Source: Lactococcus sp. S-13
GTDB taxonomy: Bacteria > Bacillota > Bacilli > Lactobacillales > Streptococcaceae
DNA: 64,000 nucleotides
Assembly (NCBI RefSeq): GCF_004210295.1
Contig: NZ_SDAK01000001.1
Coordinates: 434,001 to 498,000 of the forward strand
Direction of reading: 5' to 3'
The position numbers and the translations under genes were made by a program. Under the pieces are notes generated by a model that saw only the letters and a program-made list of their open reading frames with translations, was not told where the DNA came from and did no database searches. Each line of letters starts with the position of its first letter. The first letter of the stretch is position 1. Shown here one piece after another: positions 2,731-60,562 of the stretch.

Positions 2731-3581
2731 TTTTCTTCCTCCATTTCACTGACGAAATTGGCTTTTTGCATTTCTTTCAGAAAATCCGAATGAATCCTAA
2801 CTTGTTCGGTATGATATAAGGTCACACTTAAACTCGCACCAGTTGAGTATTCCTGCTCAATCCGGATGCCTGTTACGTCAAATTTTTGCCATTTTCGTGT
2901 CAAATCTTGGCGATAGTAGACTAGAGCTTTGGTGATGGGTAAATTGAGCTTACGGCGCAGACTTTCAGTGATTTCGTCAGTATTTTCTCCAAACAAATCA
3001 AGCTGTTCATTTGCGTCAGCATTTTCTCCAAGCTCCAAAATTTCCGTCAGTATTTTCTCTGAGACATTTTGCTCACTTTTTTGTAAATAATGATAAAGTT
3101 TCGCCGTAATCAGACAGTCATTAAGCGCATCATGCGAGCGTAAATCACTGACGCCCAGCAACTCTTTAAAATTGACCAGCGCATAAGAAGACATCTGCAA
3201 AAGACGTTTACTTTCAGCCAAAGTATCATAAACTCGAAAGGCTTCCACACCCGTAAGCGCACAATCAATAATGGCTTGGTACAAAAAACTCACATCAAAA
3301 GGCGCATTATGAGCCACCAAAAGATGTCCTTCGATAAAGGCCAAAAATTCTGGCAGGATTTCTTCAATCGTTGGCTGATTGAGCAAATCTGCAGGCTTAA
3401 TTCCAGTTAATTCTGTAATTTCTGAGGAGACATAGGATCGCTGATTTTTGACTAATTGGTTAAACCGTGCGATTTCAACATCGTTTTCGTCATATTTTAC
3501 CGCACCGATTTGGATAATTTCATTTTTTTGAGCAGAGAAACCAGTGGTTTCAAAGTCAAAAACGACGTATTTTTCTTTCAT
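2727..3581 (-). CDS. DnaQ-like 3'-5' exonuclease (DEDDh family)
   Basis: Stand-alone relative of DNA polymerase III epsilon. Exo I (DFETTG, residues ~9-14), Exo II (HNAPFDVSFL, ~91-100) and Exo III (SHDALNDC, with catalytic His and Asp, ~150) are all present, so it should be an active DEDDh nuclease. The ~100-residue C-terminal part has no domain I recognise. Residues ~170-212 form a low-complexity linker made almost entirely from three copies of the dispersed AGAGAA..CTGACG element, read in two frames (as EKILTE and as GENADA / GENTDE). It sits between an S51 peptidase and the acetyltransferase and is probably cotranscribed with parE. Role in repair or nucleotide salvage cannot be told from sequence. 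Confidence 0.9.
   Translation of the reverse strand: MKEKYVVFDFETTGFSAQKNEIIQIGAVKYDENDVEIARFNQLVKNQRSYVSSEITELTGIKPADLLNQPTIEEILPEFLAFIEGHLLVAHNAPFDVSFLYQAIIDCALTGVEAFRVYDTLAESKRLLQMSSYALVNFKELLGVSDLRSHDALNDCLITAKLYHYLQKSEQNVSEKILTEILELGENADANEQLDLFGENTDEITESLRRKLNLPITKALVYYRQDLTRKWQKFDVTGIRIEQEYSTGASLSVTLYHTEQVRIHSDFLKEMQKANFVSEMEEEK
2975..3063 (-). repeat. three dispersed elements in the exonuclease gene
   Basis: Cores at 2975, 3014 (each one mismatch) and 3045 (exact), spaced 39 and 31 bp, in sense orientation. Confidence 0.88.
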
Positions 3582-3617
3582 TTTTCTTTTACTCCAGCTG
3601 ACAGGTTCGTCAGCAAA

Positions 3618-4151
3618 TTATACAGCATTCTCTATCAGCAAAATCTCATGATTATCAACAATCAGCCCTGCTGAGTCAGTCAGAAAATAAGTATTTTCTT
3701 TGAAAATCGTAAGTTTTTCATGAGGAGAAATTGAGAAATCCAGCAGCCCCAGATAATTTTTCGCCAAAACGCAAGCGCCTGCTGATGAACCCACCCAGAT
3801 TTTTCCTGCCAAAAGTTTTGGCAAAAGTTCAGAAAAACCAGTTTTCTCAAAGGTTTCTAGCAATTCATTAGTGTAGCCACCAAAACACCAAATCAAATCG
3901 TAGCCCAACATTTTAGTCTTGAGCTGCTCAGGCGACAGCGCCCGCAAATTGGCAAAAGTCAGTTTGCCACCAAAAGTTGTGGCCAAACTTGAAAATGCCG
4001 ATAAAAGCCAGCGACAATCATCATCTGACTGGGCGAGCGCTTCGTTAATCAGACAGACCGAGATGTCGGCGCGAGATTTGCCCAGCCATTTTTCAATTTG
4101 TCGAATGAATTTTTCCTTACCTTCTGGCGCAGATGCTAAAATCAAACGCAT
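3618..4151 (-). CDS. S51 (peptidase E / cyanophycinase-like) family protein
   Basis: The nucleophile elbow VGSSAGACVL (Ser near residue 128) and an upstream GG-turn (WCFGGYTNELL) match Ser-dependent S51 peptidases related to aspartyl dipeptidase PepE. It has a possible histidine in FSISPH. At about 177 residues it is clearly shorter than PepE (~230), the missing part being C-terminal loops, so activity is not assured. I start it at the second Met (4151), which has an AAGAG-like ribosome site; an in-frame ATG at 4166 is the alternative. It lies in the parE-exonuclease string, flanked on both sides by short CTGAC/GTCAG hairpins. Confidence 0.75.
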   Translation of the reverse strand: MRLILASAPEGKEKFIRQIEKWLGKSRADISVCLINEALAQSDDDCRWLLSAFSSLATTFGGKLTFANLRALSPEQLKTKMLGYDLIWCFGGYTNELLETFEKTGFSELLPKLLAGKIWVGSSAGACVLAKNYLGLLDFSISPHEKLTIFKENTYFLTDSAGLIVDNHEILLIENAV

Positions 4152-4201
4152 TTTTTCTCTTTTCATGTTCGAAAAATTACTGACGAAGCTGTCAGCAAAC
4201 T

Positions 4202-7896: not shown

Positions 7897-10065
7897 ATGT
7901 CTTTAAAACAACTCAAAGATGTCACTTATTTTAAGCTAAATAATGAAATCAATATTCCTGTCAACGGCGCTATCCCGCTTGCCAAAGACAAGGAAGCCAT
8001 CACCGCATTTTTCAAAGAAAATGTTCAACCTAATCGCTTCACCGCTGAAACTTACATGGACAAGCTCAATTGGCTGGTCAAAGAAGAATATTTAGAAGCT
8101 GAATTTTTAGCTCTATACAGTCCAGAATTTATCACGGTTTTGCGCAAAGAGCTGGCAGCTTTTGAATTTCATTTTGATTCATTCATGGCGGCTTATAAAT
8201 TTTATAATCAATATGCCATGAAAAACAACGACGGCTCACTTTATCTGGAAGACTTTGAAGATCGTGTGCTCATGAACGCACTTTACATGGCTGACGGCTC
8301 TGAAAAATTGGCCCATGATTTGGCCTTTGCCATGATTAACCGCCGTTATCAGCCTGCAACTCCGACTTTTTTGAACGCTGGTCGTAAACGTCGGGGCGAA
8401 TTTGTGTCATGTTTTCTTTTGCAACTGACTGATGACATGAACTCAATCGGACGTACTATTAACTCTGCTTTGCAACTGTCTAAAAACGGTGGAGGAGTTG
8501 GTTTGAACCTGACCAATCTGCGTGCTGCTGGTGCACCAATCAAGGGTTATGATGGTGTGGCTGCTGGAGTTGTGCCGGTCATGAAATTGTTCGAAGACAG
8601 CTTTTCATATGCTAACCAGCTCGGTCAACGTCAAGGTGCTGGTGTGGTTTATCTGTCGATTTTCCACCCCGACATCATGCAATTTTTATCCACCAAAAAA
8701 GAGAACGCCGATGAAAAAATTCGGGTCAAGACTTTGTCACTAGGTGTGACAGTGCCTGATAAATTCTACGAATTGGTCAAAAAAGGCGAAACCATGTACT
8801 TGTTTGAGCCATACTTTGTCGAAAAACACTATGGTAAACCTTTCTCAGAAGTCGATTTGACCGCCGAATACGACAATATGGTGGCCAATCCAGACATTCG
8901 CAAGACAGCAATTTCTGCTCGTGAACTGGAGCAAGAATTGTCTAAACTGCAACAAGAATCAGGCTATCCTTACGTCATCAACGTGGATACGGTAAACGCC
9001 GCAAATCCTATTGACGGGGTCATTTCCATGTCCAACCTTTGCTCAGAAATCTTGCAAGTGCAGACACCATCTGTCTTAAATGATGATCAAACTTACAAAA
9101 CTTTGGGCACTGACGTAGCTTGTAACCTTGGCTCAACTAACGTGCTCAACATGATGACTTCTGCTGATGAATTTGGCAGTTCTGTCGAATCTATGGTGCG
9201 GGCGCTGACTTTCATCTCTGAAACGTCAAATCTGGACACTGTGCCAACCGTCCGCAAAGGAAATGACGAAATGCACGCGATTGGCCTTGGTGCTATGGGC
9301 TTGCATTCATTTTTAGCGAAAAATCAAATTCATTATGACAGCAAGGAAGCCGTTGAATTTACTAGCGTTTATTTCATGTTGCTCAATTATTATACTTTGG
9401 TGGCCTCAAATAAATTGGCAGTTGAAAAAGGTTCTTCTTTCAAAACTTTCGAAAAATCGGCTTACGCTGACGGCAGCTATTTTGATAAATATGTCAGCCA
9501 TGATTATTTTGCGGCTGTTTCACCAAAGGTACAAGCTTTGTTTGAGGGCATTGATGTGCCAAGTCTGGCTGACTGGGCGGCTTTGCGTGAAACGGTGAAA
9601 GCTTCTGGGCTTTACAATTCTTACCGCATGGCGGTGGCGCCAAATGGTTCGATTTCTTACATCAATGACTGTTCTTCTTCGATTCACCCCATCGTCAACC
9701 GGATTGAGGAACGCCAGGAAAAGAAAGTCGGCAAGATTTATTATCCTGCGGCTGGACTTTCAACCGAAACCATCCCTTACTACAAATCAGCTTATGACAC
9801 CGATATGCGGGCGGTCATTGACGTTTATGCAGCGGCAACGGAACACGTTGACCAAGGCTTGTCATTGACTTTGTTCATGCGCTCAACTTTGCCAGAAGGC
9901 TTGTACGAATGGAAAGTGGCCACTAACAAAATGACCACACGTGATTTGTCAATTTTGCGCAATTATGCTTTCAAAAAAGGTATCAAAACCATTTACTACG
10001 TCCGCACCTTTACTGACGACCAAGAGGAAGTCGGTGCTAACCAGTGCGAAAGCTGTGTGATTTAA
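7897..10065 (+). CDS. nrdE: class Ib ribonucleotide reductase alpha subunit NrdE
   Basis: Catalytic subunit converting ribonucleoside diphosphates to deoxyribonucleotides; 722 residues, the normal length. It has the short N-terminus without an ATP cone that defines NrdE, the loop SKNGGGVGLNLTNLRAAG, the radical-site segment SNLCSEI, the pair of tyrosines near GIKTIYYVRT, and a C-terminal NQCESCVI carrying the cysteine pair re-reduced by NrdH. ATG preceded by AAGGAG. The interval to nrdF is unusually long (204 bases). Confidence 0.98.
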   Translation: MSLKQLKDVTYFKLNNEINIPVNGAIPLAKDKEAITAFFKENVQPNRFTAETYMDKLNWLVKEEYLEAEFLALYSPEFITVLRKELAAFEFHFDSFMAAYKFYNQYAMKNNDGSLYLEDFEDRVLMNALYMADGSEKLAHDLAFAMINRRYQPATPTFLNAGRKRRGEFVSCFLLQLTDDMNSIGRTINSALQLSKNGGGVGLNLTNLRAAGAPIKGYDGVAAGVVPVMKLFEDSFSYANQLGQRQGAGVVYLSIFHPDIMQFLSTKKENADEKIRVKTLSLGVTVPDKFYELVKKGETMYLFEPYFVEKHYGKPFSEVDLTAEYDNMVANPDIRKTAISARELEQELSKLQQESGYPYVINVDTVNAANPIDGVISMSNLCSEILQVQTPSVLNDDQTYKTLGTDVACNLGSTNVLNMMTSADEFGSSVESMVRALTFISETSNLDTVPTVRKGNDEMHAIGLGAMGLHSFLAKNQIHYDSKEAVEFTSVYFMLLNYYTLVASNKLAVEKGSSFKTFEKSAYADGSYFDKYVSHDYFAAVSPKVQALFEGIDVPSLADWAALRETVKASGLYNSYRMAVAPNGSISYINDCSSSIHPIVNRIEERQEKKVGKIYYPAAGLSTETIPYYKSAYDTDMRAVIDVYAAATEHVDQGLSLTLFMRSTLPEGLYEWKVATNKMTTRDLSILRNYAFKKGIKTIYYVRTFTDDQEEVGANQCESCVI

Positions 10066-10097: not shown

Positions 10098-10176
10098 AGA
10101 GCATTTACTGACGGAATTGTTTGGCGTCAGAGAAATTGCTGACGAAACTCATTTGAGCTAGAGAATTTACTGACGA
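10098..10176 (+). repeat. three dispersed-element copies between nrdE and nrdF
   Basis: CTGACG cores at 10108, 10139 and 10170, each preceded by AGAG(A/C)A(A/T)(A/T)T(A/G). Spacing is exactly 31 and 31 bp, all oriented with transcription. A degenerate fourth core (CTGTCG) is at 10085, and an inverted CGTCAG at 10125. Confidence 0.85.
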
Positions 10177-11464: not shown

Positions 11465-14400
11465 ATGAAACTTTCTCACTTTAGTCGGAAGGTCACTTTG
11501 ATGTCCGTGATTTTGTTGAGCAGTGCGGCGACGGCTGGCGGGTTTATTTCACTGAAAAATTCACCACTTGAGTCTTTTATGGCACAGAGGGCTGACGCAG
11601 CGACGACTTCTAACTCTTACAGTGTGAGTGGAACGGTTGGGTCTTTTACGATTTTGAAAAGCCCAACCATGGTGGGAACTGGAAATAGCACGAGCGGTTT
11701 TGTGGCGAATGCTAAAGAAAATGATGCTTCGGCGCCAAAAATGACGAGTGGCTCTGGGGTTGTTTCTGCTGCTGGGACTTATTCAGGATCCTCTGTGGCG
11801 ATTTCTGCTGGTTCAAACAAGGGAACATATGCTGCTAACTGGGGTTCAGCTCCTTCTCTTGTCACGACAGGAGCTTATGTCGTTTCTGGCTTGAGTGTGG
11901 GGTCTTCATTTGACAAAACTTGGTCAAATATTGGGACGCTGAATGGAAAAGCTTTGAATGTCACTATGACTTTCATAGTCACTGCGCTCCAAAATCCTTC
12001 TGGAACAAATAATTACATTGCCGTTTCGAATAATTTAAACACTTTTGTGACGTCGAATAATCTCAACGGGAAGTTCCAAGTTCACTATACTTATGCTGAC
12101 GGAACGCCTCTTTCTTTGAGTGACATGAATCAGCTTGCTTTTTTAGGGGGTTCTTTGACGCCTTCTACGGAATATATGACGACTGCGGATGCGGCGGATG
12201 TCTTACTTTCTTCAAATGCCAGTGTGCCAACGGCGGTTAAGGGGGCGACAACTGCTAATGCGAGTTCTCTGGGATTGGCTTCGGGTTTGACGACTGTTTT
12301 TTATTCGCCTACAAACTCTTATACGGTCAGCGATACGGATTTTAATTCTTATGCCTATGCTTATGGGGCTTCTTTTTTGAATTTTTCAACGGCAACGCCT
12401 ACTTTTTATTTTGGAAATTGGACGGCTTCGTCTGGCAAGATTTCGGCGCAGGGGGCTAATCACATCTTGTTTGCGACGGAGACTTCTCCAATCACGGTCA
12501 GCAAATTGTTGACGGCGGTAGGAGATAGTTATTATACGACAGTAACTCCTTCGACCGATGCTGTCTTGAAGAATACTGTGAATCCTTCTCAGCTCAATGA
12601 TAACAGCTCAGCGACCATTACTAAAGCAACGGCAAGTGTCGTGAGTGGCCCTGATGGACAAACTTATCCTGCAGGTAGTGTAACGGTGGATGATGCTGGA
12701 AATGTGACGGTAGATCACTCTATTTTGAGCAAGCCGGGCATTTATACGTTCAGCGTGACTTATACGGATAGTACTGGGGCGATTGTTACGGCTTATGATA
12801 ACATCTCAGTCGCTATCGGAACAAATAGTTTGACGCCACTGGCCACACCTGTGACCGTAAAAAATACAAATGTGCCAACCGGAACGCCTAAGATTTCGGT
12901 TAAAGGGCCTGATGGAGCGTCTGTCACTGCTTCTGATGTCACTTTAAATCAGAGCGATGCGGATAGCTTGGTCACTTTGGCGGGGCAAAATACGCCGGGT
13001 ATTTATACGATTGATTTGACTTATCCAAATGGTGTGGTCGTCGAGGACTATATTTCGGTTGTTGAGGGCGACAGCACTACTGTTGGCACTAATCAACTAG
13101 CGACGCTCCAAAACAATGTGCAAGAAATCATTGACCAAAATACAACTGATGGTGGAAATGTCATCCAAAATCCCGTGTTAGACTTGTCGGCGGGTGTGGT
13201 CGGGACAATCTCTGCCCCTACTGGTGTGACGGTCGATCCCGCACTGGTCAGTGTGAATGCGGACGGTTCTGTGACTTTAAATGGTCAACCGACACCTGGT
13301 GTTTACACGATTCCTGTGACTTATACTGAAACTTATACCGACAGTAGCGACAAGCAAGTGACACTGACAGTCACCATCAATGACGTCGTCACTGTGGTAG
13401 AAAATAAAATCCCTGGTTTTGAAGTTTCAACGGCTCAAGGAAGTGCCGTTACTGGGACAAACGATTTGTCAAATGTTAATCTGGGCTTGTTAGATGCTCA
13501 AGGGCCTAAGCAACAATCTGTGGAATTGCTTTCGGCAACACAGCATGATGCCAACAAAACGCCTATCACGACAGCGAGTGCTGCTGATTTCACTCTGAAT
13601 GGAAGTCTCTTAGCGCCGTGGGATTATGGCGGGGTGACTGCTTCTGATCAGCTTGCTCCGGGAGACTATACTATCAAGGTCACTTATGTGGGGCAAGACG
13701 GTATACAATCTACGGTGAATGACATTGTCCATGTGTATCCAAAGCCTACCCTATCAAGCCAAGACACTAAAATGATGGTCGGAGATGACTTTACTGACAA
13801 GGCTGCTTTTACTGAGGGGATGGACAGTTTAGGGCAGGCAATTGATTATGATGAAGCAATCCAAAATGGTGATTTGCTTGTGACGGATGATGTGGACACA
13901 TCTAAAGCAGGGGACTATACGGTCACTTTTACTTATACTGATCCGACGACGAAGCAAAAGGTGACTTCTACTGCGACGGTGACTGTGGTGGATAATACTG
14001 CAATCAGCTCAAAGGCAACTGATGCTATTTTGGAGGGGACTGATTTTGCACCAGCTGATGATTATCTCGCTTCCACAAATGCGGATAAGACGGCTGGAAG
14101 CTTGACCAATACTAACTCTGCTAAGGTGGCTGTGGTGATTACAGATGCTCAGGATAAACTTGTCTGGTCTGGGTCTGCGGATGCGATTGTACCTGCAAGC
14201 AAACTTCCTGCTGGAAATTATACGGTGACTTACAAAGTGACGGATACGACTGGCAGTACAAAATCTAGTACTACAGCACTCAAAGTGATCGCCCTAGATC
14301 GGACTGACCTTGTCAGCAAGGCAACAGACACTGTCCCAGCCGGTATTTATAAGCCAAGTGGGGATTATCTTTCTTCCCAAAATACTGACGGATCGTCTGG

Positions 14401-16576
14401 CAGTCTGACCGCTACTAATAATCAGCCTGTGCAAGTCACAATTACTGACAAAAATGGTCAAGTCATTGACCAAGGGCCAGCAGATCGCACGGTTACACTG
14501 ACGGGTGGAACTTACACTGTCGTTTATACGGTCAAAAATGCTGACGGAAATGCAGTCAGCAGCACTACCTCGCTCACGGTGACTGACAATACTTCAATTT
14601 CATCAAAAGCAACGGATACGATTATCGCGGGAATTTACCAGCCAAGCAAGGACTATGTCACTTCTACTAACGCTGACGGGACGGGAGCGACTTTTGCCAA
14701 TACCAACGGCAACTCTGTCAAGGTGAGCTTGACCGATAAGTCTGGAAACGTAGTCACACCAAATGCTGACGGCACTTATACTTTGGCCGGCGGATCTTAC
14801 AGCGAAATTTACACCGTCACAGACAGCAATGGCAATCCACACAGCGCAACTACAATTGTGAGCGTTCAAGATTTGACAACACTTCACACTCAATCAACCT
14901 TCACGACTGACGCGCCAGCGCTTAATCAAAGCACCGTGCCTTTTGATCCTGCTGCTGCATTTGAAACTTCCACAAACGCTGACGGATCTGACGGGACTTT
15001 AGCAAACACTAACGGCGCGAGCGTCACCGTCACTGTCACGGGTAAAAATGGAAACCTTGTCTCACCAGCCTCTGACGGGACTTATCCGCTCTTACCTGAT
15101 GAAAATTACACCGTGACCTACACCACTCACAATGCTTCGGGGCAAGCAGTCAGCACGACCACCGAAGTCAATGTCCCTACTGCCCCTGTTGATGAAAGCA
15201 CACTTGATTCACGAGACACCGATCAAATTTCTGTTGGCACTTATCATCCGCTCACTGATTTGACTACGGTCAAAAATGCTGACGGAACGGATGGCAAAGG
15301 CAATCTGAAGCTTAACAACGGCCCTATCCATGTCGAAATTACTGACGAAAATAACAAGCTAATCTGGCAAGCTGACCTCACAGCTGACAGCTCTGTTAAC
15401 TTGACTGGCGGGACTTATGTAGTCACTTACACCGGCAAAGATTCACTGAACAATCCTCTGGTTACCACAAGCTCACTCACTGTCACAGACCAAACAGCAC
15501 TGATTTCTAAACCTGTCAACAATAGCCTCAAGGCCAATCAAACCTATCAACCCGCAAGCGACCTTGTCACTGACAAAAATGCTGACGGATCTGACGGCAG
15601 CCTTGATTTGACCAATGGAAATCCGGTCAAAGTCACAATTACTGACGAAAAAGGTCAGCCTGTCAGAGAAAATGCTGACGGAACTTACACCCTAGCTGGC
15701 GGTTCATACACCAGCACTTACACAAGCTCTGACAGCAATGGTCAGCCCGTGGTGACGACAACACTGATTAACGTTTCCGACCTGACTAGCATCATGACTA
15801 AAGGCACTGACCAAATTACTGACGGAAATGACTTCATTGCCAACATTGATTTTGTCAGCAGCACAAATGCTGACGGATCCACTGGAAATCTGTCCAGCAC
15901 CAACGAAAACCCTGTCACGCTCAACGTCGTTGACAAGACAGGAAAAAGCATTTGGACTGGAAAAGCCAGCGACAAAATCCCAGCCAGCAAGCTGCCCACA
16001 GGCGATTACACCATCACTTATCAGGTCAAAAATTCTAATGGCCAAATCGTCAGCAGCACCACAAACTTGACCGTTCAAGCCAAAAATCATCCTGCAGCAC
16101 CCTCAGCACCAACGGTTGATCATACGACACTGACGAGCCAAGCCAAAGACCAAATTACTGACGGAAATCCTTACACACCAAGCATTGACCTCACCAAAGC
16201 CACTGACCAAGCCGGAAATAAAGTCCCTGATTCTGACATCAGCGTTACAATCACTGACCAAACCGGCAAACTCATTTGGAACGGAAAGGCCAATGACACC
16301 GTCTCCGCTGGCCGATTAACAAGTGGTAGCTACACGGTCACCTATACTTACAAAGCAAAGACAGCCACAACCAGCTTAAGCGTTGTCGCCAAAAAACAAC
16401 CAACAGCAAAACCAACTGAAAGACCTGCCTCAGCTCCTACGCAGCCAACGTCTGAGGCTTCAAACAATGATTTACCACAAACCAGTGACAGCACTGGATA
16501 CTTAGCCGCGCTCATTGGCACATTCGCCCTATTTGGTGCTGGCTTACTCGAAGCCCTCAAGCGCCTGCGTCGCTAA
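11465..16576 (+). CDS. large sortase-anchored repeat surface protein
   Basis: A 1703-residue cell-wall protein. It has a basic N-terminus and hydrophobic signal sequence (residues ~9-30, likely cut near ADAA at 44-47), a ~400-residue unique region, several Rib-like/Ig-like blocks each ending in PGIYT(I/F)..VTYT, then eight ~95-100-residue repeats from about 13990 to 16395. Each runs SKATD...ADY..STNADG...TITD..G...GTYT..YTV...SSTT.L.V. A proline/threonine spacer leads to LPQTS (residues 1670-1674), a hydrophobic helix and the tail KRLRR. LPQTS departs from LPxTG in its last residue but should still be a sortase A-type signal. Ligand unknown; adhesin is inference. Good AAAAGGAG site. One exact copy of the dispersed element lies at 15665-15680 and encodes RENADG. 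Confidence 0.93.
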   Translation: MKLSHFSRKVTLMSVILLSSAATAGGFISLKNSPLESFMAQRADAATTSNSYSVSGTVGSFTILKSPTMVGTGNSTSGFVANAKENDASAPKMTSGSGVVSAAGTYSGSSVAISAGSNKGTYAANWGSAPSLVTTGAYVVSGLSVGSSFDKTWSNIGTLNGKALNVTMTFIVTALQNPSGTNNYIAVSNNLNTFVTSNNLNGKFQVHYTYADGTPLSLSDMNQLAFLGGSLTPSTEYMTTADAADVLLSSNASVPTAVKGATTANASSLGLASGLTTVFYSPTNSYTVSDTDFNSYAYAYGASFLNFSTATPTFYFGNWTASSGKISAQGANHILFATETSPITVSKLLTAVGDSYYTTVTPSTDAVLKNTVNPSQLNDNSSATITKATASVVSGPDGQTYPAGSVTVDDAGNVTVDHSILSKPGIYTFSVTYTDSTGAIVTAYDNISVAIGTNSLTPLATPVTVKNTNVPTGTPKISVKGPDGASVTASDVTLNQSDADSLVTLAGQNTPGIYTIDLTYPNGVVVEDYISVVEGDSTTVGTNQLATLQNNVQEIIDQNTTDGGNVIQNPVLDLSAGVVGTISAPTGVTVDPALVSVNADGSVTLNGQPTPGVYTIPVTYTETYTDSSDKQVTLTVTINDVVTVVENKIPGFEVSTAQGSAVTGTNDLSNVNLGLLDAQGPKQQSVELLSATQHDANKTPITTASAADFTLNGSLLAPWDYGGVTASDQLAPGDYTIKVTYVGQDGIQSTVNDIVHVYPKPTLSSQDTKMMVGDDFTDKAAFTEGMDSLGQAIDYDEAIQNGDLLVTDDVDTSKAGDYTVTFTYTDPTTKQKVTSTATVTVVDNTAISSKATDAILEGTDFAPADDYLASTNADKTAGSLTNTNSAKVAVVITDAQDKLVWSGSADAIVPASKLPAGNYTVTYKVTDTTGSTKSSTTALKVIALDRTDLVSKATDTVPAGIYKPSGDYLSSQNTDGSSGSLTATNNQPVQVTITDKNGQVIDQGPADRTVTLTGGTYTVVYTVKNADGNAVSSTTSLTVTDNTSISSKATDTIIAGIYQPSKDYVTSTNADGTGATFANTNGNSVKVSLTDKSGNVVTPNADGTYTLAGGSYSEIYTVTDSNGNPHSATTIVSVQDLTTLHTQSTFTTDAPALNQSTVPFDPAAAFETSTNADGSDGTLANTNGASVTVTVTGKNGNLVSPASDGTYPLLPDENYTVTYTTHNASGQAVSTTTEVNVPTAPVDESTLDSRDTDQISVGTYHPLTDLTTVKNADGTDGKGNLKLNNGPIHVEITDENNKLIWQADLTADSSVNLTGGTYVVTYTGKDSLNNPLVTTSSLTVTDQTALISKPVNNSLKANQTYQPASDLVTDKNADGSDGSLDLTNGNPVKVTITDEKGQPVRENADGTYTLAGGSYTSTYTSSDSNGQPVVTTTLINVSDLTSIMTKGTDQITDGNDFIANIDFVSSTNADGSTGNLSSTNENPVTLNVVDKTGKSIWTGKASDKIPASKLPTGDYTITYQVKNSNGQIVSSTTNLTVQAKNHPAAPSAPTVDHTTLTSQAKDQITDGNPYTPSIDLTKATDQAGNKVPDSDISVTITDQTGKLIWNGKANDTVSAGRLTSGSYTVTYTYKAKTATTSLSVVAKKQPTAKPTERPASAPTQPTSEASNNDLPQTSDSTGYLAALIGTFALFGAGLLEALKRLRR
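13990..16395 (+). repeat. eight ~95-residue tandem protein repeats
   Basis: Repeats begin near 13990, 14296, 14590, 14873, 15182, 15491, 15782 and 16105. They are divergent in sequence (not recent duplications) but share the NADG and TITD/ITDGN turns. In the N-terminal half of the gene the Asn-Ala-Asp-Gly turn is written with GCG GAC; in these repeats it is mostly AAT GCT GAC GGA, which contains the CTGACG core. Confidence 0.8.
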
Positions 16577-18330: not shown

Positions 18331-18376
18331 CGTCAGCATTTTCTCTCTGACGAAAAAATCCGTCAGTAAATGCTCT
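18331..18376 (-). repeat. composite dispersed element in ftsE leader
   Basis: CGTCAG cores at 18331 (exact 16-mer) and 18361 (one mismatch), 30 bp apart, with an inverted CTGACG at 18347. Nearly identical over about 50 bp to the copy at 54193-54237. Confidence 0.85.
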
Positions 18377-21870: not shown

Positions 21871-22770
21871 ATGACTAAACAAAGAAAATTAGCGATTATT
21901 TCAGATTTCCATCTGGATAGCAATGCTTTTTCGACCGATGAATTACAGATTTTTGTGGATTTACTCATGGAATTGAACATTACAGATTTGCATTTTGCTG
22001 GAGATATTTCAAATGATTTCTGGAAAATTTCTGAGCCGTTTTTTACGCAAATAAAAACGCTGACGCCACTTTCTGTCACTTTCAATCTGGGAAATCATGA
22101 TATGGTAGGCCTTAATGAAGATGAAATTGCTCAGAGTAATTTTCAAGTCACTTATTTTGCTGACACAGCTTTTGTTAGTTTTCACGGTTGGTACGATTAC
22201 TCCTTGATGGACGGTGCAATTGATCCCGCAAAAATTCTTGCCTTTAAAAATGCTTTTTATTTTGATCGCAAAATCAAGCGCGCTTTTGACGATGTCACAA
22301 CGACCCAAAATGAACTTTCAGAGCTAGAGAATTTACTGACGAAACTTTCTGAAAATCCGTCAGTAAAAAAGATTGTCGTCAGCACCCATTTTGTGCCACA
22401 TCAGCAATTTATCATTAACAGCCGGTATGAAAAGTTTGCGCGCTTCAATGCTTACCTAGGCTCACAACATTTTCATGAGCTTTTTGTTCAATTTCCCAAA
22501 ATCACCGACGTTGTTTTCGGACATCTCCATCAACGCCGAAAAGAAATGACCATTGACGGGATTCATTATCAGTCCAAACCGCTTGGTTATGCTTACGAAT
22601 GGCAACTTATCAGTGATTTTTTACTGACCTATCCCCACTTTCAAATCAAAGAAAACTGGCACTTACGCAAACGCTACAACAATTTACGTCAGTCCAATGA
22701 ATGGCAGAACTTTCGTCAGAAGCATCTCGCAGAAGAATTTCGGCGTGCTTTAGTAATTTTTGAATTTTAA
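21871..22770 (+). CDS. calcineurin-like metallophosphoesterase
   Basis: 299-residue two-metal phosphoesterase. Motifs in order: ISDFHLDS (~10), AGDISNDF (~50), LGNHDM (~76), STHFVPH (~172) and FGHLHQR (~218), a complete metal-binding set. Substrate unknown. Residues ~150-170 (ELENLLTKLSENPSVKK) are encoded by an exact copy of the dispersed element plus an inverted one (22326-22363), and another core follows at 22378. Appears to be a single-gene leaderless transcript. Confidence 0.88.
   Translation: MTKQRKLAIISDFHLDSNAFSTDELQIFVDLLMELNITDLHFAGDISNDFWKISEPFFTQIKTLTPLSVTFNLGNHDMVGLNEDEIAQSNFQVTYFADTAFVSFHGWYDYSLMDGAIDPAKILAFKNAFYFDRKIKRAFDDVTTTQNELSELENLLTKLSENPSVKKIVVSTHFVPHQQFIINSRYEKFARFNAYLGSQHFHELFVQFPKITDVVFGHLHQRRKEMTIDGIHYQSKPLGYAYEWQLISDFLLTYPHFQIKENWHLRKRYNNLRQSNEWQNFRQKHLAEEFRRALVIFEF
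22326..22383 (+). repeat. dispersed element inside phosphoesterase gene
   Basis: Exact 16-mer at 22326-22341, inverted cores at 22358 and 22378. The 24 bases beginning GAGCTAGAGAATTTACTGAC at 22321 also occur in the nrdE-nrdF gap (10155 onward). Confidence 0.85.
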
Positions 22771-27361: not shown

Positions 27362-27411
27362 AGAGAAAATGCTGACGGATGATGCGGAAAAATTACGTCA
27401 GCATTTTTTCT
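27362..27411 (-). repeat. inverted pair of dispersed elements (focA terminator)
   Basis: An exact copy at 27362-27377 on the plus strand and a one-mismatch inverted copy at 27396-27411 form a ~15-bp hairpin that ends on the focA stop codon and has a T-rich flank; it likely terminates focA. Confidence 0.75.
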
Positions 27412-28325: not shown

Positions 28326-28407
28326 AGAGAAAATGCTGACGGATTCTGTTTGAGAGAGAAAAAATGCTGACGTAAGTTAAAATAAGCTTTTCGTCAGCAT
28401 TTTTGGC
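28326..28407 (-). repeat. dispersed elements after the ABC permease gene
   Basis: Plus-strand cores at 28336 (exact 16-mer) and 28367 (two extra bases), 31 bp apart, and an inverted core at 28392. The last two form an AAAAATGCTGACG / CGTCAGCATTTTT hairpin just past the ABC permease stop, a probable terminator. Confidence 0.75.
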
Positions 28408-31731: not shown

Positions 31732-31811
31732 CGTCAGCATTTTCTCTGCCTGTTTTGACTCAAATTAAAATGCGTCAGCATTTTCTCTGCCTATCCGTCA
31801 GTAAAATGATC
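31732..31811 (-). repeat. three dispersed elements downstream of whiA
   Basis: Cores at 31732 and 31773 (both exact 16-mers) and 31796 (partial), spaced 41 and 23 bp, in sense orientation for whiA. The two exact copies share 20 identical bases, from CGTCAG to TCTCTGCCTR. Confidence 0.9.
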
Positions 31812-32811: not shown

Positions 32812-32890
32812 AACTTTTTTACTGACGGATTCTAAAAAAAATAGTTTTAATATTTTTTTCTCACAATACAAATCCGTCAGCATTTTCTCT
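32812..32890 (-). repeat. inverted dispersed elements between yvcK and whiA
   Basis: CTGACGGATT at 32822 and AATCCGTCAG at 32871-32880 form 10-bp inverted arms; the second belongs to an exact 16-mer (32875-32890). Confidence 0.8.
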
Positions 32891-32901
32891 CATCATTTTC
32901 T

Positions 32902-38037: not shown

Positions 38038-39887
38038 GATTTTGCCTTATAAGAAATCAAACGCATCCCATTTAAAATAACCACTAAAATTGACGCTTCG
38101 TGAACAAACATTCCCGTTCCCATATTGACAAAACTTGGGACAAGTCCCGTCCCGCCTAAAATCAATCCCGTCAGAAGAAAAATGACGACTGCAATAGCCA
38201 GAGCAATATTTTGAGTCATATTTCGCACGGTACTTTTGGCCAGAGTATACGCATCAACAAGCTCATCAAAGCTCGATTTCATCAAAACAATATCAGATGT
38301 TTCAATTGCCACATCAGTACCTGAGCCCATTGCAATCCCAATATCGGCGAGAGCGATAGACGGACTGTCATTGATGCCGTCACCAACAAAGGCCAGCTTA
38401 TGTCCCAATTTTTTGAGTTTTTCAACAATTTTTGCCTTGTCTTCTGGCAGTAGATTGGCATGGACTTCATCAATGCCGAGCTGACTAGCGACAGCTTTAG
38501 CACTCGCTTCATTATCCCCCGTCAGCATAATTGTTTTTTGCATTCCCTTACGTCGAAGTTGCGTCAGTGCCTCTTTTACCCCTGGACGAATTTCGTCAGC
38601 AATTCCGTAAATGATTTTCAGTTGACCTGCTTGAGCCACTAGCACCGTTGAACTTCCTTTTTCTTGCATTACTTTCAAAAGTGATTTTTGCGATTCCGTC
38701 AGTAAAATTTCTCGTTCCGTCAGTAATTTTTCATTGCCAATCAGGATTTCGTCAGCAATAATTCCTTGCCCTTTAATGACGTCAGTTTGACCCATTTCAA
38801 CCCTTTCATCCCTCGCAATAAATTTGACAATAGCATGGGCCAATGGATGATTAGATTGCCCTTCCACTGTTGCTATTTTCGTCAGTAAATTCTCTGAGAC
38901 TTCCCCGAACGTTTTAACCTCAACAACTTGCGTCGTCCCTTTTGTCAGTGTCCCCGTTTTGTCAAAAAGCAAGGTGTCCACCCGACTAAAAGTGTGTATG
39001 ACCTCCCCACCCTTGATTAAAACCCCATTTTTTGCCCCATTACCAATCCCAGCAACATTAGATACTGGCGCGCCAATCACCAGTGCACCTGGGCAACCCA
39101 ACACTAAAATCGTAATCGCAAGTGCCAAATTTTGACTCCATAACCAAACAACAATCGCAAGCAAAAGTACAGCTGGTGTATAAAATTTGGCAAAGCGATC
39201 AATAAATTTTTCGGCAGAAGATTTCATATCTTGTGCCTGCTCAACCAACTCAATAATTTTGCCAAAAATCGTATCTTCGCCAATTTTTTCTGCGATGACA
39301 TAGATGCTCCCATTTGCCAAAAAACTCCCCGCAAAAACTTTATCCCCCGCACTTTTTCTGATTTCTCGCGCTTCCCCCGTGATTGAAGCTTCATTGACAA
39401 GCCCTGTCCCCTCATAAATTACACCATCAACTGGCACCTGACTTCCCGTTCTAACTAACAGTTGATTACCCACATTTACCTCATCAATAGTTACTTCCTT
39501 TCCGTCAGCAAAAAGGGCCGTTGCTGGCGCCATTTGCGTCAGCGTTTTGATAGAAGAACGTGTTTTTTCAAGTGTACGCTTTTCAAGGTAAGAACCAAAA
39601 GTAAATAAGAACGTCACAATTGCCGACTCTTCATATTCTCCTATAAAAATTGCCCCAAGCACCGCAATCGTCACTAACAAATCAATTGAAATTTGTTTAT
39701 ACCTCAACGCTTGATAAGCATGGATCGCGATCGGTACTCCCCCTAAAATGGACGCAAGCAACATCGAAATATTCCAAGCCCAATCATTTTTGAAACCATA
39801 CTTTCCCACATAGCCAAGGACAATCATCAGCCCCGATAGTGCCATCAACCTGTTAGCATTTTTGTATAACCATTTTTGAAAAATCAT
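38034..39887 (-). CDS. P1B-type heavy-metal ATPase
   Basis: 617 residues without an N-terminal metal domain. Actuator TGEA (~170), phosphorylation Asp309 in DKTGTLT, nucleotide domain with the HP dipeptide (SNHPLAHAI), hinge TGDNEASA and GDGINDSPSIA. The transmembrane metal motif is CPG (265-267) instead of the usual CPC/CPS, so metal specificity is uncertain (Zn/Cd/Co group more likely than Cu). The segment encoding residues ~330-460 contains at least nine CGTCAG cores. An FNR box sits at about -41.5, so it is probably activated by the neighbouring FLP regulator. Confidence 0.9.
   Translation of the reverse strand: MIFQKWLYKNANRLMALSGLMIVLGYVGKYGFKNDWAWNISMLLASILGGVPIAIHAYQALRYKQISIDLLVTIAVLGAIFIGEYEESAIVTFLFTFGSYLEKRTLEKTRSSIKTLTQMAPATALFADGKEVTIDEVNVGNQLLVRTGSQVPVDGVIYEGTGLVNEASITGEAREIRKSAGDKVFAGSFLANGSIYVIAEKIGEDTIFGKIIELVEQAQDMKSSAEKFIDRFAKFYTPAVLLLAIVVWLWSQNLALAITILVLGCPGALVIGAPVSNVAGIGNGAKNGVLIKGGEVIHTFSRVDTLLFDKTGTLTKGTTQVVEVKTFGEVSENLLTKIATVEGQSNHPLAHAIVKFIARDERVEMGQTDVIKGQGIIADEILIGNEKLLTEREILLTESQKSLLKVMQEKGSSTVLVAQAGQLKIIYGIADEIRPGVKEALTQLRRKGMQKTIMLTGDNEASAKAVASQLGIDEVHANLLPEDKAKIVEKLKKLGHKLAFVGDGINDSPSIALADIGIAMGSGTDVAIETSDIVLMKSSFDELVDAYTLAKSTVRNMTQNIALAIAVVIFLLTGLILGGTGLVPSFVNMGTGMFVHEASILVVILNGMRLISYKAKS
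38520..38895 (-). repeat. dispersed-element cores within the P-type ATPase gene
   Basis: CGTCAG at 38520, 38562, 38594, 38697, 38718, 38750, 38780 and 38880 (the last an exact 16-mer encoding SENLLTK). Spacings 42, 32, 103, 21, 32, 30 and 100. Confidence 0.8.
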
Positions 39888-52804: not shown

Positions 52805-54142
52805 TTAGTTTTTAAAGGAATGAATTGGTGCAGGAATTTGTCCTCCGCGCGCGATGAAATCAGCTGATGAGGCTTTATTGACACGCATGACAGGGGCAAC
52901 TCCGAAAAGTCCGCCAAATTCGATTTGTTCGCCTTCTTTACCCATTGGAATAATGCGGACAGCAGTTGTTTTTTGGTTGATAACCCCAATAGCTGCTTCG
53001 TCGGCAATCATTGCGGCAATGGTCGTCGCTGGAGTTTCTGCTGGAATGGCAATCATGTCAAGTCCAACAGAGCAGACGCAGGTCATAGCTTCTAATTTTT
53101 CGATGTTGAGCGCACCCGAATTGACCGCGGCAATCATGCCTTCGTCTTCGGAAACGGGAATGAAGGCACCAGAAAGTCCACCAACGCGCTCGGCTGCCAT
53201 GACGCCACCTTTTTTAACGGCATCATTGAGCATGGCAAGGGCTGCCGTGGTTCCATGTGTTCCAACGGTTTCTAAGCCCATTTCTTCAAGAACACGCGCT
53301 ACGGAGTCGCCAATAGCTGGCGTTGGAGCGAGTGACAAGTCAACGATTCCAAACTCAACGCCCAAGCGCTCTGAGGCCATTTGACCGACCAATTGACCGA
53401 TACGAGTGATTTTGAAGGCTGTTTTCTTGATGGTCTCGGCTAAAATGTCAAAAGATTCGCCACGAACTTTTTCCAAAGCACGTTTGACCACGCCGGGACC
53501 TGACACGCCAACGTTGATAATCGTATCAGCCTCACCTACGCCGTGGAAGGCACCCGCCATGAAGGGGTTGTCTTCGACCGCATTGGCAAAAACAACCAGC
53601 TTGGCGTTCAACCATTTGTCGCCCTTGGACATGATTTTGATGGTTTCACCCATGTCGCGCACAGCGGTCATGTTAATGCCTGTTTTGGTTGAGCCGACGT
53701 TGACTGAAGCACAGACGCGTTCAGTGGCCGCAAGGGCTTTAGGCATTGATTTGATGAGGATTTCGTCGCCTTTTTGGTAGCCTTTTTGAACCAAGGCTGA
53801 ATAGCCTCCAATGAAGTCGATGCCGATTGCTTTTGCCGCGCGATCCATAGCGAGTGCAAGTGGAGTGTAATCGTCAGCGTCTGTTGCTGCACCAATGATG
53901 GCAATAGGGGTCACTGACACGCGCTTATTGACAATTTTGATGCCGAGTTCACGACCAATGTCGTTTCCAACTTCAACAAGTTTGCCAGCTTTAGTGGTGA
54001 TTTTTTGATAAATTTTTTCGGCAGCTTTGTCAATGTCTGCGTCAATACAGTCCAGTAAGCTGATGCCCATTGTGATTGTGCGAATGTCAAAATTTTGCTC
54101 TTCAATCATGGCAATGGTTTCTTTGATGTTTTGAATATCCAT
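52805..54142 (-). CDS. UPF0210 (DUF711) PFL-like protein
   Basis: 445 residues, matching the UPF0210 family fully (start [20 protein letters not shown]). The fold is related to pyruvate formate-lyase but no glycyl-radical site is evident. Regularly paired with the small ACT protein upstream. Function unknown. Confidence 0.93.
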
Positions 54143-54192
54143 TTTTTGTGCAAGTTCCTTTTTTCGTGATGATTTCGTGGGGGAGTGATTTT

Positions 54193-54267
54193 CGTCAGCA
54201 TTTTCTCTCTGACGAGAAATCCGTCAGTAAATTCTCTGATAAAATAATTTTCGTCAGTAAATCCGCT
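54193..54267 (-). repeat. composite dispersed element before UPF0210 gene
   Basis: CGTCAG at 54193 and 54222 (both exact 16-mers) and 54252 (partial), spaced 29 and 30 bp, with an inverted core at 54209. Confidence 0.9.
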
Positions 54268-54278
54268 GATTTTTTGGC

Positions 54279-54542
54279 TTATAATTTGTGCATAGCGTTA
54301 AAAATTGCTTCATTTTGAACGTGAATGTTAACACCAAGTTGTTCGCCTTTTTTGATCAATTCCGCTTGAAATGCTGAGAAATCTTCACTTTTGGTTTCAA
54401 CGACCATCATCATCGTGAAAGCTCCGCTCATCAAGGTTTGGGAAATTTCGAGGATGTTAGCTTCAAGTTGTGCCAAGGTTTCTGTTACTCCAGCGACAAT
54501 CCCTATTTTATCTGTTCCAACTACGGTTACAAGTGCGTGCAT
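54279..54542 (-). CDS. ACT-domain protein (UPF0237)
   Basis: 87-residue single ACT domain (VTVVGTDKIGIVAGVTETLAQ at the start). Known as a conserved partner of UPF0210; probably a small-ligand sensor. GGAG site; extended -10 on the minus strand (TGGTATAAT, 54573-54581). Confidence 0.93.
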   Translation of the reverse strand: MHALVTVVGTDKIGIVAGVTETLAQLEANILEISQTLMSGAFTMMMVVETKSEDFSAFQAELIKKGEQLGVNIHVQNEAIFNAMHKL

Positions 54543-54581: not shown

Positions 54582-54611
54582 TTTTGTCAGTATTTTTTCT
54601 GCTGCTGTTGG

Positions 54612-54627
54612 AGAGATTTTACTGACG
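54612..54627 (+). repeat. dispersed element upstream of menA-like gene
   Basis: AGAGATTTTACTGACG, one mismatch from the exact 16-mer. Confidence 0.65.
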
Positions 54628-57370: not shown

Positions 57371-57473
57371 AATTTACTGATGAAAGTGACTTTTTTGCTG
57401 ACGTAAATTTTTTCCTCGTCAAACGCTGACTTTTTTGCTGACGGATTTTTTGGTCAGAGAAAAAATACTGACG
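57371..57473 (+). repeat. dispersed-element cluster before EEP gene
   Basis: Cores at 57377 (CTGATG), 57398, 57438 and 57468, spaced 21, 40 and 30 bp. Here the orientation is opposite to the flanking minus-strand genes. Confidence 0.75.
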
Positions 57474-58075: not shown

Positions 58076-58108
58076 TTTTGTTCTTTCCCCTCGTTTTTAT
58101 CAAGAAAA

Positions 58109-60562
58109 TTAGAATTTTTTATGTGCTTTTTTACGTCCGTCAGCAAATTTTCCTTTGGCCGCCTTCGTGTAAAAAGGTTTTTTGGCTGATTTTTTCTTTT
58201 GGTCAGCATTTTTTTGACGTCCAGAAATTCCGTCAGTAAATTCTCTATTTCCGTCAGCATTTTGGGCGCGTTTGCCCTTGTGACTTGGTTTTTTGGCGTC
58301 CTTTTTGCTGACGGATTTCACTTTGAGCGCTTGATGCCCTTTTTTAGCCGACTTATGCTCTGGCTTCTTCTTGGCTTTGAGCGTTTTTTCGACAACATCA
58401 AACTCTGACGGCAAGTAAGCAAAATCAATTTCGCCAGTCATTTTATCTGCCTTAACCACTTTGATCGTGATAGCTTGTCCAATTTTGAAAATCAAGCCCG
58501 TCCGCTCGCCAACCAAAGCCAACATCCGTTCATGATAAGCAAAATATTCCCCCTTCAAAGTCGAAATATGAATCAAACCTTCAATGGTATTTTCCAATTC
58601 CACAAACATTCCAAAACGCGTCACAGAAGCGATAATACCCGTAAACTCTTCGCCCACGTGCTCTTCCATGAACTCCGCTTTTTTCATTTTTTCAACTTCA
58701 CGTTCAGCATCAACCGCACGACGCTCACGATGGCTAGAATGCTCAGCAATTTCAGGAATTTTCGCTTCCCATTTCTGTAAAATTGATGCAGGAATTTTTC
58801 CTGAGCCAATTTCACGAATCAAACGATGCACCAGCAAGTCCGGATAACGGCGAATGGGCGAGGTAAAGTGCGTGTAATTTTCAGCCGCTAAGCCAAAGTG
58901 TCCTTCATTGTTTTCAGAATAGCGCGCTTGTTGCATCGAACGCAGAAGCATCGTTGACAGTACCAGCTCACCCGGCTCACCCTTGATTTTTTTCATGAAC
59001 GCTTGCAACACTTTTTGGTCAATACCGTTTGATGTTCCCTCGATTTGCATCCCGAAAGTTGCCGCAAAATCAATAAAACGTTGCAAACGATCCGCTTTTG
59101 GCTGCTCGTGAATCCGATAAATGAACGGCAAATTATGACTTTCAAAATGCGTCGCTACCGTTTCATTAGCTTCCAACATGAAAGATTCAATCATGCGCTC
59201 AGCAATGCCTCGACTGCGCTTTCTGATTTCGACTGGCAGTCCTTTTTCATTGACAATAATTTTTGCTTCCGTTGTTTCAAAATCAATTGCACCACGGCGT
59301 TTGCGCATCCCCTCCAAAATATGATGCAATTCGACCATAATTTTGACAGAATCAGCGATTTTTCCATATTTTTCAAGTGTTTCGCTATCGCCAGCAATCA
59401 TCAAATTAACCTCATCGTAAGTCATCCGCTCCGTTGTTTTGATGATAGATTGTGAAATTTGATAATTAACCACCCGGCCATCAGGCGTGATTTCCATCAC
59501 ACAAGATTGCGTCAAACGGTTAACCCGAGGGTTGAGCGAACAAATGCCGTTAGACAAGCGCTCAGGTAGCATTGGCACCACACGATCCGTCACATAAACA
59601 GAAGTTCCACGCTCATATGCTTCCTTATCCAAAGGAGAATTTTCTGTCACATAATGAGATACATCAGCGATATGAACGCCCAATTCGAAATTACCATTGC
59701 CCAAACGCTTGGCATGAACCGCATCATCGAGGTCTTTAGCATCAGCGCCATCGATCGTAAAAGTGATTTCATTACGATAATCCACCCGACCAGCAATTTC
59801 GCTCTCTGGCACTTCCTCAGGAACACTCTCAGCCTGAGCGATTACTTCTGCTGGAAATTCCGACACAATATCCATGGAAGCAAGAACCTCTAAGACATCA
59901 ATCCCTTGATCATCTGCCTGTCCGACTATCTCCGTCGCCAAACCTTGCATGGTCTGCGGAAATTCCGCATCAGGATAATGAGTAATTTCAGCGCGAACAA
60001 TCGCTTTATTTTCCGGAATCAACCCTTCATCACTCAGATAAACCGCATAAGGAATTTTTTTGTTCCGTGATTTGACAAAACCAATCAATCCCGTTGCTTG
60101 ACGTTCTTCCTCAGACAAACTTACAAAAGTACCCACCACTTGATGCAGCTCATGACGAATAATTTCGACCACGTGCCCTTCTGCTGCTGTTCCCTTGAGC
60201 GCATTGGCGTTTTTGTCCAGCTCCAAAGCAACCTCATCGCCATCTAAAGCAAAAGCTGTCTTTCCTCTTGCGATAAAAACATCTGGCTCCTCCGCATCGA
60301 TATTCACAAAACCAAAACCAGCGGCATTGGCCCGAAAAATCCCATTAACGAGTACTTTTGGCAACTCTTTTTTAGCTAATTCAACTTTTCCTTTGGCAGT
60401 GAAATTCACCAGATGTTCAGCTTCCAATTCTGCCAAAGTTTTCACAAAAAGCTTGTAATCTCTTGCCTTATTAAAGCCTAAAGCCAAAGCAAGTTCCTCT
60501 GCTGACAAGGCTTTTTTGGCAGTTTGTGCCAAATAATCCAAGATAAGTTCTTTAATTTTCAT
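58109..60562 (-). CDS. rnr: ribonuclease R
   Basis: 3'-5' exoribonuclease, about 817 residues. N-terminal winged helix, cold-shock domains, RNB catalytic domain with the four-Asp motif (DGADAKDLDDAVH, ~285), S1 domain (FTGIIASVTRFGMFVELE) and a very basic tail of ~90 residues. The tail carries at least four dispersed-element cores (58138-58313), one giving QNADGNREFTDG. I prefer the Met at 60562; 60571 and 60577 are also possible. Downstream of secG as in other lactococci. Confidence 0.96.
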   Translation of the reverse strand: MKIKELILDYLAQTAKKALSAEELALALGFNKARDYKLFVKTLAELEAEHLVNFTAKGKVELAKKELPKVLVNGIFRANAAGFGFVNIDAEEPDVFIARGKTAFALDGDEVALELDKNANALKGTAAEGHVVEIIRHELHQVVGTFVSLSEEERQATGLIGFVKSRNKKIPYAVYLSDEGLIPENKAIVRAEITHYPDAEFPQTMQGLATEIVGQADDQGIDVLEVLASMDIVSEFPAEVIAQAESVPEEVPESEIAGRVDYRNEITFTIDGADAKDLDDAVHAKRLGNGNFELGVHIADVSHYVTENSPLDKEAYERGTSVYVTDRVVPMLPERLSNGICSLNPRVNRLTQSCVMEITPDGRVVNYQISQSIIKTTERMTYDEVNLMIAGDSETLEKYGKIADSVKIMVELHHILEGMRKRRGAIDFETTEAKIIVNEKGLPVEIRKRSRGIAERMIESFMLEANETVATHFESHNLPFIYRIHEQPKADRLQRFIDFAATFGMQIEGTSNGIDQKVLQAFMKKIKGEPGELVLSTMLLRSMQQARYSENNEGHFGLAAENYTHFTSPIRRYPDLLVHRLIREIGSGKIPASILQKWEAKIPEIAEHSSHRERRAVDAEREVEKMKKAEFMEEHVGEEFTGIIASVTRFGMFVELENTIEGLIHISTLKGEYFAYHERMLALVGERTGLIFKIGQAITIKVVKADKMTGEIDFAYLPSEFDVVEKTLKAKKKPEHKSAKKGHQALKVKSVSKKDAKKPSHKGKRAQNADGNREFTDGISGRQKNADQKKKSAKKPFYTKAAKGKFADGRKKAHKKF
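58138..58267 (-). repeat. dispersed elements in the rnr C-terminal tail
   Basis: Cores at 58138, 58201 (GGTCAG), 58231 (exact 16-mer), 58252 and an inverted core at 58308. Spacings 63, 30 and 21. Confidence 0.85.

Follow-up and report, generated by a model that had tools for sequence, protein, structure and literature searches.

The chromosome of Lactococcus sp. S-13 carries a word of roughly 20 bp in hundreds of copies, mostly intergenic, also intragenic and on both strands, and related species, L. lactis among them, carry words of their own spelling. We studied this word from a stretch of 64,000 nucleotides (C1:434001-498000; hereafter the window) of a genome of 2,273,230 bases in four contigs (labelled G000), in which an earlier note had drawn attention to dispersed exact copies of the 16-mer AGAGAAWWTRCTGACG. 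Tentatively, and as part of the explanation favored below, we take this 16-mer to be the species' own dialect of a DNA self-address that relatives spell differently.

All 15 exact copies listed for the window are present at their coordinates, and none appeared in 100 dinucleotide shuffles. The six one-mismatch copies named in the earlier note are there as well, together with two that it had overlooked (28357 and 57458). With up to two mismatches allowed, the window holds 31 copies where 0.31 are expected, in line with the claim that matches lie far above random expectation, and the repeat also stands when counted genome-wide: G000 contains 473 exact copies (184 on the plus and 289 on the minus strand), while the same motif read backward has none. 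Across 564 kb of the chromosome, comprising 26 loci with the window among them, we counted 145 copies without a mismatch, 77 with one, and 47 with two, so that exact copies outnumber one-mismatch copies; five shuffled motifs gave means of 0, 0.2, and 2.2 and the reversed motif 0, 0, and 1. Shuffles, reversed control, and mismatch spectrum together rule out chance or composition as the origin of the word. Among 58 genomes, the exact 16-mer occurs 473 times in G000 and once each in four of the 57 others. The form AGAGAAAATGCTGACG was found once each in at least 80 loci among the matches listed in a scan of named genomes (80 of at least 118 stretches) and once each in 55 viral stretches, two scans that may omit records close to the window's genome, and CTGTCAGYRCTGACAG had no copy in an order-wide draw of 395 genomes with G000 as the sole Lactococcus.

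The 129 exact copies in a 464-kb sample (20 stretches plus the window) yield the fuller consensus cAGAGAAwWTRCTGACGnAWnT, with almost no flank information outside about -2 to +21, which marks the word as a site and not as an element copied along with extended flanks. Open reading frames (ORFs) were called mechanically, with a minimum of 90 aa for the placement counts in this sample, by which 100 of the exact copies are intergenic, 18 lie sense and 6 antisense within ORFs, and 5 lie across a gene end. The core WTRCTGACG occurs 335 times in the sample, 110 times within ORFs (88 sense, 22 antisense), and its intergenic density falls from convergent (44 in 4,833 b) over tandem (166 in 46,206 b) to divergent gene pairs (10 in 9,062 b). 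A core density that is lowest per kb where genes diverge and highest where they converge speaks against the suggestion that the word serves as a weak ribosome-binding site. A strand bias had also been claimed, at 13 of 15 copies: in the window, 14 of 15 exact copies share their strand with the gene that surrounds them or lies upstream (all except 28326; mechanical ORFs plus an 87-aa ORF at 54279-54542), but in tandem intergenic regions of the sample only 52 exact copies lie on the genes' strand and 26 opposite, and for cores these numbers are 99 and 67. The bias thus exists, and the figure of 13 or 14 in 15 overstates its genome-wide extent.

To look for corresponding words in relatives, we compared 18 Lactococcus species genomes (labelled G000 to G017); the patterns counted in relatives were picked after their enriched words had been seen. 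The pattern TTACTGACAGA reaches 585 copies in G001 (backward control 3), 359 in G015 (2), 195 in G005 (1), 189 in G016 (0), and 144 in G009 (1), with low counts of 30 (1) in G010 and 21 (3) in G000 and at most 11 in the other 111 of 118 genomes; G001 is L. lactis DSM 20481, with a 13,250-b contig identical to plasmid NZ_CP118971.1 of that strain. The perfect palindrome TGTCAGYRCTGACA, for which the control was 0 throughout the 18 genomes, dominates in G010 (692), G005 (355), G016 (326), and G013 (294) and is found at low numbers in G004 (40), G001 (14), G015 (13), G007 (12), G009 (7), G000 (2), and G011 (1) and never in the other seven. A third pattern, TTTTTGACAGAA, occurs 315 times in G011 (control 2), 11 times in G007 (2), and at most six times in each of the other 16. 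Nine of the 18 species therefore have a strong word (G000, G001, G005, G009, G010, G011, G013, G015, and G016) and G004 and G007 a weak one, while seven (G002, G003, G006, G008, G012, G014, and G017) show no stand-out count for any pattern. Samples of 40 kb from G002, G003, G012, G014, and G017 held no comparably enriched word, a weaker dialect being possible there (11 copies of TTCGTCAA vs 2.2 expected in G002, 7 of GATGTGAC vs 0.8 in G014); G006 and G008 were covered with the fixed patterns only. In a single-gene, midpoint-rooted tree of ComGA, six of the seven motif-less species group together, with G006 (71% complete) unplaced. All dialect labels need eight changes on this tree, a number equally low in 1 of 200 shuffles, and neither the palindrome group nor the TTACTGACAG group forms a single clade. 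Samples of G005 (L228, L229, and L238) also contain a second strongly enriched set, CTATCTCCGC, CTACGCTGTC, and ACAGCGTAGC, which appears to be an unrelated dispersed repeat.

The dialects tend to occupy the same places. Orthologous intergenic regions were paired via reciprocal best proteins, and in each genome the species-specific word pattern was counted. For 82 distinct G000 regions with at least one ortholog in eight genomes, the 28 that hold the word have a dialect copy in a mean of 53% of relatives and the rest in 15% (permutation p 0.0004; 0.0002 within length classes). Pooled over the eight genomes, the odds ratio is 10.9 and remains at 7.2-10.0 when stratified by length or gene orientation (167 comparisons, which are not independent). 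Taken singly (regions with a word in both genomes / G000 only / the other only / neither; Fisher p uncorrected for eight tests), the association is seen for G001 (10/4/4/19, p 0.0017), G016 (7/2/4/16, 0.010), G005 (5/1/2/9, 0.035), and G010 (2/1/0/9, 0.045). As examples from the window, the region 54142-54278 has own-dialect words in its orthologs in G001, G015, G016, G005, and G011 (six species with G000), and the region around 57396..57473 has two in G001, three each in G016 and G005, one in G015, and none in G009. Within genes, the aligned codons at window position 22326 read CTGACGAAA in G000, CTGACAGAA in L. lactis G001, and CTGACAGAG in G016, and at the position aligned to 58138 both G001 and G015 have TTTACTGAC. 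At ungapped G000 coding sites, CTGAC is kept in the ortholog at 8 of 12 sites in G001, 3 of 11 in G009, 1 of 7 in G015, 3 of 7 in G016, and 3 of 5 in G005, some of which reflects conserved amino acids; gapped sites (six, seven, six, five, and five, respectively) were set aside.

The word belongs to the chromosome. The three small contigs of G000 (156,697 b, read entirely) contain no exact copy where 35 are expected and four cores where about 110 are; two of them, C3 and C4, are partial matches to Lactococcus plasmids, and all three (C2, C3, and C4) are probably plasmids. Likewise, the two small contigs of G001 (71,591 b) lack TTACTGACAGA against an expectation of 16.6, and 28,331 b of small contigs in G016 lack palindromes against 3.4. 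Along the G000 chromosome, 24 of 25 stretches of 20 kb have at least two exact copies, and the remaining one, with neither exact copies nor cores, is a prophage (G000:C1:518001-538000, L264) that starts 20 kb past the end of the window and in which each of the ten proteins searched has a phage-family match (portal, terminase, major head, tail, RecT, replication, and others). The exact word is thus scarce in plasmid-like contigs and in this one prophage stretch, as uptake signals would be.

Neighboring copies tend to lie on one face of the helix. Spacings between same-strand neighbor cores are mostly 20-23, 29-33, 39-42, 51-52, 59-63, 71-74, 93-95, or 112-114 b, and we fitted neighbor pairs with a model of two parameters, period and contact position, in which direct, convergent, and divergent copies must share one face. 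For 220 neighbor pairs in G000, the fit gives a period of 10.25 bp with a mean cosine of 0.75 (0.74 on the grid used for 200 jittered sets, the best of which scores 0.18); the phasing persists when only one direct pair per distinct spacer is kept (n = 87, R 0.69). All-orientation fits also exceed the largest of 200 jittered sets in G001 (0.50 vs 0.30), G016 (0.71 vs 0.38), G005 (0.71 vs 0.42), G015 (0.55 vs 0.45), G011 (0.64 vs 0.54), and G009 (0.84 vs 0.68, with 15 of 20 pairs convergent and mostly of one hairpin spacing); the fit for G010 is not significant (0.45 vs 0.57). Since these fits in relatives contain hairpin pairs, direct pairs were tested separately, and in G001 (n = 41), G016 (n = 17), and G005 (n = 19; a close relative of G016 and not independent of it), none of 1,000 jittered sets was as good, at periods of 10.3-10.4. 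The fitted contact positions of G000, G001, G015, G016, and G005 differ by no more than about 1 bp if half a turn is allowed. Four of eight control words had enough pairs for the same analysis; GAAGAAG gave p 0.009 (n = 17), and the other three were not significant. A helix face shared across orientations points to a reader in contact with one side of double-stranded DNA, and we strongly infer that a protein reads the word in this form and that, as its specificity changed from species to species, the sites followed. At four loci of the G000 chromosome (L183, L187, L193, and L197), the copies sit in tandem units of 41 bp (32 bp in L197), each with an internal CGTCAG, and similar 41-bp spacers recur at distant loci, which suggests local duplication and perhaps copying between loci.

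We place an uptake signal first because the features of the word recall the DNA uptake sequences (DUS) of Neisseriaceae, because L. lactis strains are naturally transformable (PMC11244767, in the part available), and because the frames for ComGA, the comG pilins, ComEA, and ComEC are open in G000. Of the options raised in the earlier note, this one appears best supported (by copy number, dialects, the excess of exact over one-mismatch copies, some terminator-like inverted pairs, and absence from plasmid-like contigs and the prophage stretch), and these features argue with moderate force for it. The word would then be a signal like DUS or the uptake signal sequences (USS) of Pasteurellaceae, albeit in a Gram-positive genus and helically phased, an explanation that we favor tentatively. 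Copies that line one face of the incoming DNA would be bound by the tip of the ComG pilus or by ComEA (or a partner), which would favor conspecific chromosomal DNA, and the word would accumulate via transformation-driven biased recombination, while inverted pairs may double as terminators. The phasing might then arise if neighboring words were engaged by several receptors anchored to a common surface or by an oligomer that extends along the DNA. The donor in a published L. lactis transformation experiment was a 3.7-kb rpsL fragment amplified from IL1403 between primers that bear the names fusA and dacA (accessible part of PMC11244767). In G001, the L. lactis type strain, the 3.3 kb around rpsL contain two TTACTGACAG words in a neighboring divergent gene; its position and the primer name suggest that this gene is dacA. 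The published donor DNA may therefore already have carried the word unnoticed, as judged from the G001 sequence and not from that of IL1403; this is compatible with the uptake idea without testing it.

Several observations weigh against an uptake signal. Competence genes do not track the motif, with ComGA present in all seven motif-less species and a ComEC match in six of them (one a short frame), and in G015, a species with a strong word, the ComEC frame is short and that of ComGD broken. In G010, the genome richest in palindromes, no comG pilin match was found in the 7-kb stretch at comGA, and we therefore slightly lowered the probability given to uptake and slightly raised that of a chromosome-organizing protein. 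To our knowledge, helical phasing is no described property of DUS or USS, and the phasing of direct pairs does not exceed that of jittered sets in G015 (n = 14), G010 (n = 10), and G011 (n = 8). The concordance of intergenic regions is also singly non-significant for G015 (5/3/6/19, p 0.083), G009 (2/8/1/16, 0.54), G011 (1/1/0/3, 0.4), and G013 (1/3/0/3, 1.0), in the order of counts given above. Furthermore, ComEA is described as non-specific (PMC12236230, as far as accessible), and uptake sequences are named for Gram-negative bacteria only in the portions available of six sources (PMC3630211, PMC11244767, PMC13413889, PMC12236230, PMC12040237, and PMC1939737). Among the ComEA and comG pilin sequences read, no receptor could be assigned. 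As to the genes themselves, the ComEC frames are short in G015 (L297, 473 aa) and G003 (L286, 386 aa), each followed by an overlapping second frame as after a frameshift, and the ComGD match of G015 is split across two frames. Beside comGA in G010 (G010:C7:4501-11500, L310), none of six ORFs of the G013 comG region was matched; competence may be lost there or the operon rearranged.

The main rival is a chromosome-organizing protein, for nucleoid structure or membrane tethering, that wraps, bridges, or anchors DNA via one helix face and whose specificity drifted between species. It accounts for the phasing and the location of the word equally well: it would explain the same-face arrays (with periods of 10.25 in G000 and 10.3-10.4 for direct pairs in G001, G016, and G005), the gradient of core density from divergent to convergent genes, and the presence of at least two exact copies in every 20-kb stretch sampled except the prophage, with none in the plasmid-like contigs, and it requires no dependence on competence genes. 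We nevertheless consider it possible but rather doubtful, given that no candidate protein was found and that the word shows no strand polarity and, in the stretches sampled, no obvious regional gap besides the prophage. A change of spelling between close species would also be unusual for an essential chromosome protein.

A mobile element, for instance a relative of repetitive extragenic palindromic (REP) sequences multiplied by a transposase, is unlikely. High copy number, tandem arrays, inverted pairs, the apparently locally duplicated units of 41 and 32 bp, and the similar 41-bp spacers at distant loci would fit such an origin, as would some coding copies in segments absent from relatives (6 of 18 sites are gapped against G001). 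However, the flanks are almost uninformative beyond the word, ungapped coding sites differ between dialects by substitution, and the phasing survives the reduction to one direct pair per distinct spacer. The same coding sites bear on the transcription-biased insertion considered in the earlier note, which the ungapped sites do not support and with which the gapped ones are still compatible. REP elements with a RAYT transposase were rejected on a search for PF01797, the sole transposase family covered, which is absent from G000 and 15 others of the 18 genomes; the match in G010 has internal stops, and that in G017 is short.

A family of intrinsic terminators or RNA hairpins is more improbable still, even though inverted pairs with A/T-rich flanks do lie at 3' ends and core density peaks between convergent genes. 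Only 88 of 402 cores are part of a hairpin-capable pair (inverted cores within 45 b), whereas 208 of 402 lie in direct pairs without one, which rules out terminators as the general explanation; intragenic copies use both strands, a single register holds across orientations, and 14 kb of the window contain 18 terminator-like patterns, compared to 12.5 (sd 4.0) in shuffles. The role in RNA that had been read from the strand bias is not supported, in view of the same direct pairs, of copies that are antisense in genes, and of a spacing that follows the turn of double-stranded DNA; Rfam models gave no match at gathering score in the window. Least probable is a polar chromosome word for recombination or segregation, like Chi or the FtsK-orienting polar sequences (KOPS). 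A chromosomal location with no exact copies in plasmid-like contigs would fit it, but polarity is weak (tandem intergenic cores, 99 same vs 67 opposite), both strands are used in all 24 stretches tabulated (about 27% of the chromosome read), and four species have palindromic dialects.

The copies in the window are listed in Table 1. The 1703-aa ORF at 11465-16576 has Pfam matches to Bact_surface_Ig-like and CopC and many CTGACG words in its coding repeats, and a 542-aa ORF at 28432-30060 has no Pfam match at E 1e-5.

Table 1. Copies of the word in the window, with positions counted from its first base (a dot marks features with copies on both strands)
Feature	Position	Strand	Context
Array of three: 2975, 3014 (one mismatch), 3045 (exact)	2975..3060	-	Spacing 39 and 31 b; inside exonuclease-family ORF 2727-3581 (-), sense strand
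Array of three: 10098 (one mismatch), 10129, 10160 (exact)	10098..10175	+	31 b apart; just downstream of ribonucleotide reductase large-subunit ORF 7897-10065 (+)
Exact copy	15665..15680	+	Inside 1703-aa surface-protein-like ORF, amid other TRCTGACG cores
Pair: 18331 (exact), 18361 (one mismatch)	18331..18376	-	30 b apart, intergenic
Exact copy	22326..22341	+	Inside metallophosphoesterase-family ORF
Inverted pair: 27362 + (exact), 27396 - (one mismatch)	27362..27411	.	Between convergent ORFs; hairpin-capable
Pair: 28326 (exact), 28357 (one mismatch)	28326..28372	+	31 b apart; followed by minus-strand core at 28392, within terminator-like pattern
Two exact copies: 31732, 31773	31732..31788	-	41 b apart; between convergent ORFs, downstream of WhiA-family ORF
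Exact copy	32875..32890	-	Intergenic region 32728-32901; own-dialect copies in orthologous region: G001 2, G016 2, G009 0
Two two-mismatch copies	38697..38733	-	21 b apart; inside P-type-ATPase-family ORF
Exact copy	38880..38895	-	Inside the same P-type-ATPase-family ORF as 38697..38733
Array of three: 54193, 54222 (exact), 54252 (two mismatches)	54193..54267	-	Spacing 29 and 30 b
Opposed degenerate pair: 54585 - (two mismatches), 54612 + (one mismatch)	54585..54627	.	
Three TRCTGACG cores: 57396, 57436, 57466	57396..57473	+	40 and 30 b apart; third is part of one-mismatch copy 57458
58138 (two mismatches), 58231 (exact), core 58252	58138..58259	-	3' end of RNB-domain (rnr-like) ORF

Features of the Lactococcus word are shared with several known systems. 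DUS, too, are scarce in mobile DNA and have more exact than near copies, and USS have the same layout of a core with A/T-rich flanks. HIP1 of cyanobacteria is a highly iterated palindromic 8-mer and as such resembles the form found in G010, G016, G005, and G013, but the Lactococcus word is longer (14-20 bp) and has dialects and helical phasing. REP elements and bacterial interspersed mosaic elements (BIMEs) form arrays and inverted pairs downstream of genes as the word does, but no RAYT was found in G000, the flanks are not conserved, and ungapped coding sites differ by substitution. The closest parallels are with DUS, which according to the accessible part of PMC3630211 occur in dialects: both are short words in very many copies with species spellings consistent with phylogeny, both have a conserved core (CTG in DUS, TGAC in Lactococcus), and both are intragenic as well as intergenic with inverted pairs at terminator-like positions. 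Unlike DUS, the Lactococcus word is Gram-positive, phased on the helix in any orientation, and perfectly palindromic in one dialect, and it occurs in hundreds rather than thousands of copies; its role in uptake is putative, and no receptor was found for it. It shares the overrepresentation of an exact word with USS (PMC1939737, in the portion available) but differs from them in sequence, taxon, and its tandem phased arrays, and here, too, an uptake role is putative. Among the papers listed in searches of a literature with few subscription journals, no description of these words, or of an uptake word or repeat of such kind, came up.

We consider it rather probable that Lactococcus, including L. 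lactis, has a sequence-specific recognition of self-DNA with species dialects and a protein on one helix face, be it the first Gram-positive uptake-signal system or a new phased chromosome-address system, in which palindromic, half-site, and asymmetric spellings would be snapshots of one coevolving protein-DNA code. If true, this would provide a tractable food-grade model of self-DNA recognition and of why such words spread, and it would show how a protein changes specificity in step with hundreds of its sites. Whatever the role of the reader, the helical phasing is a structural clue to it.

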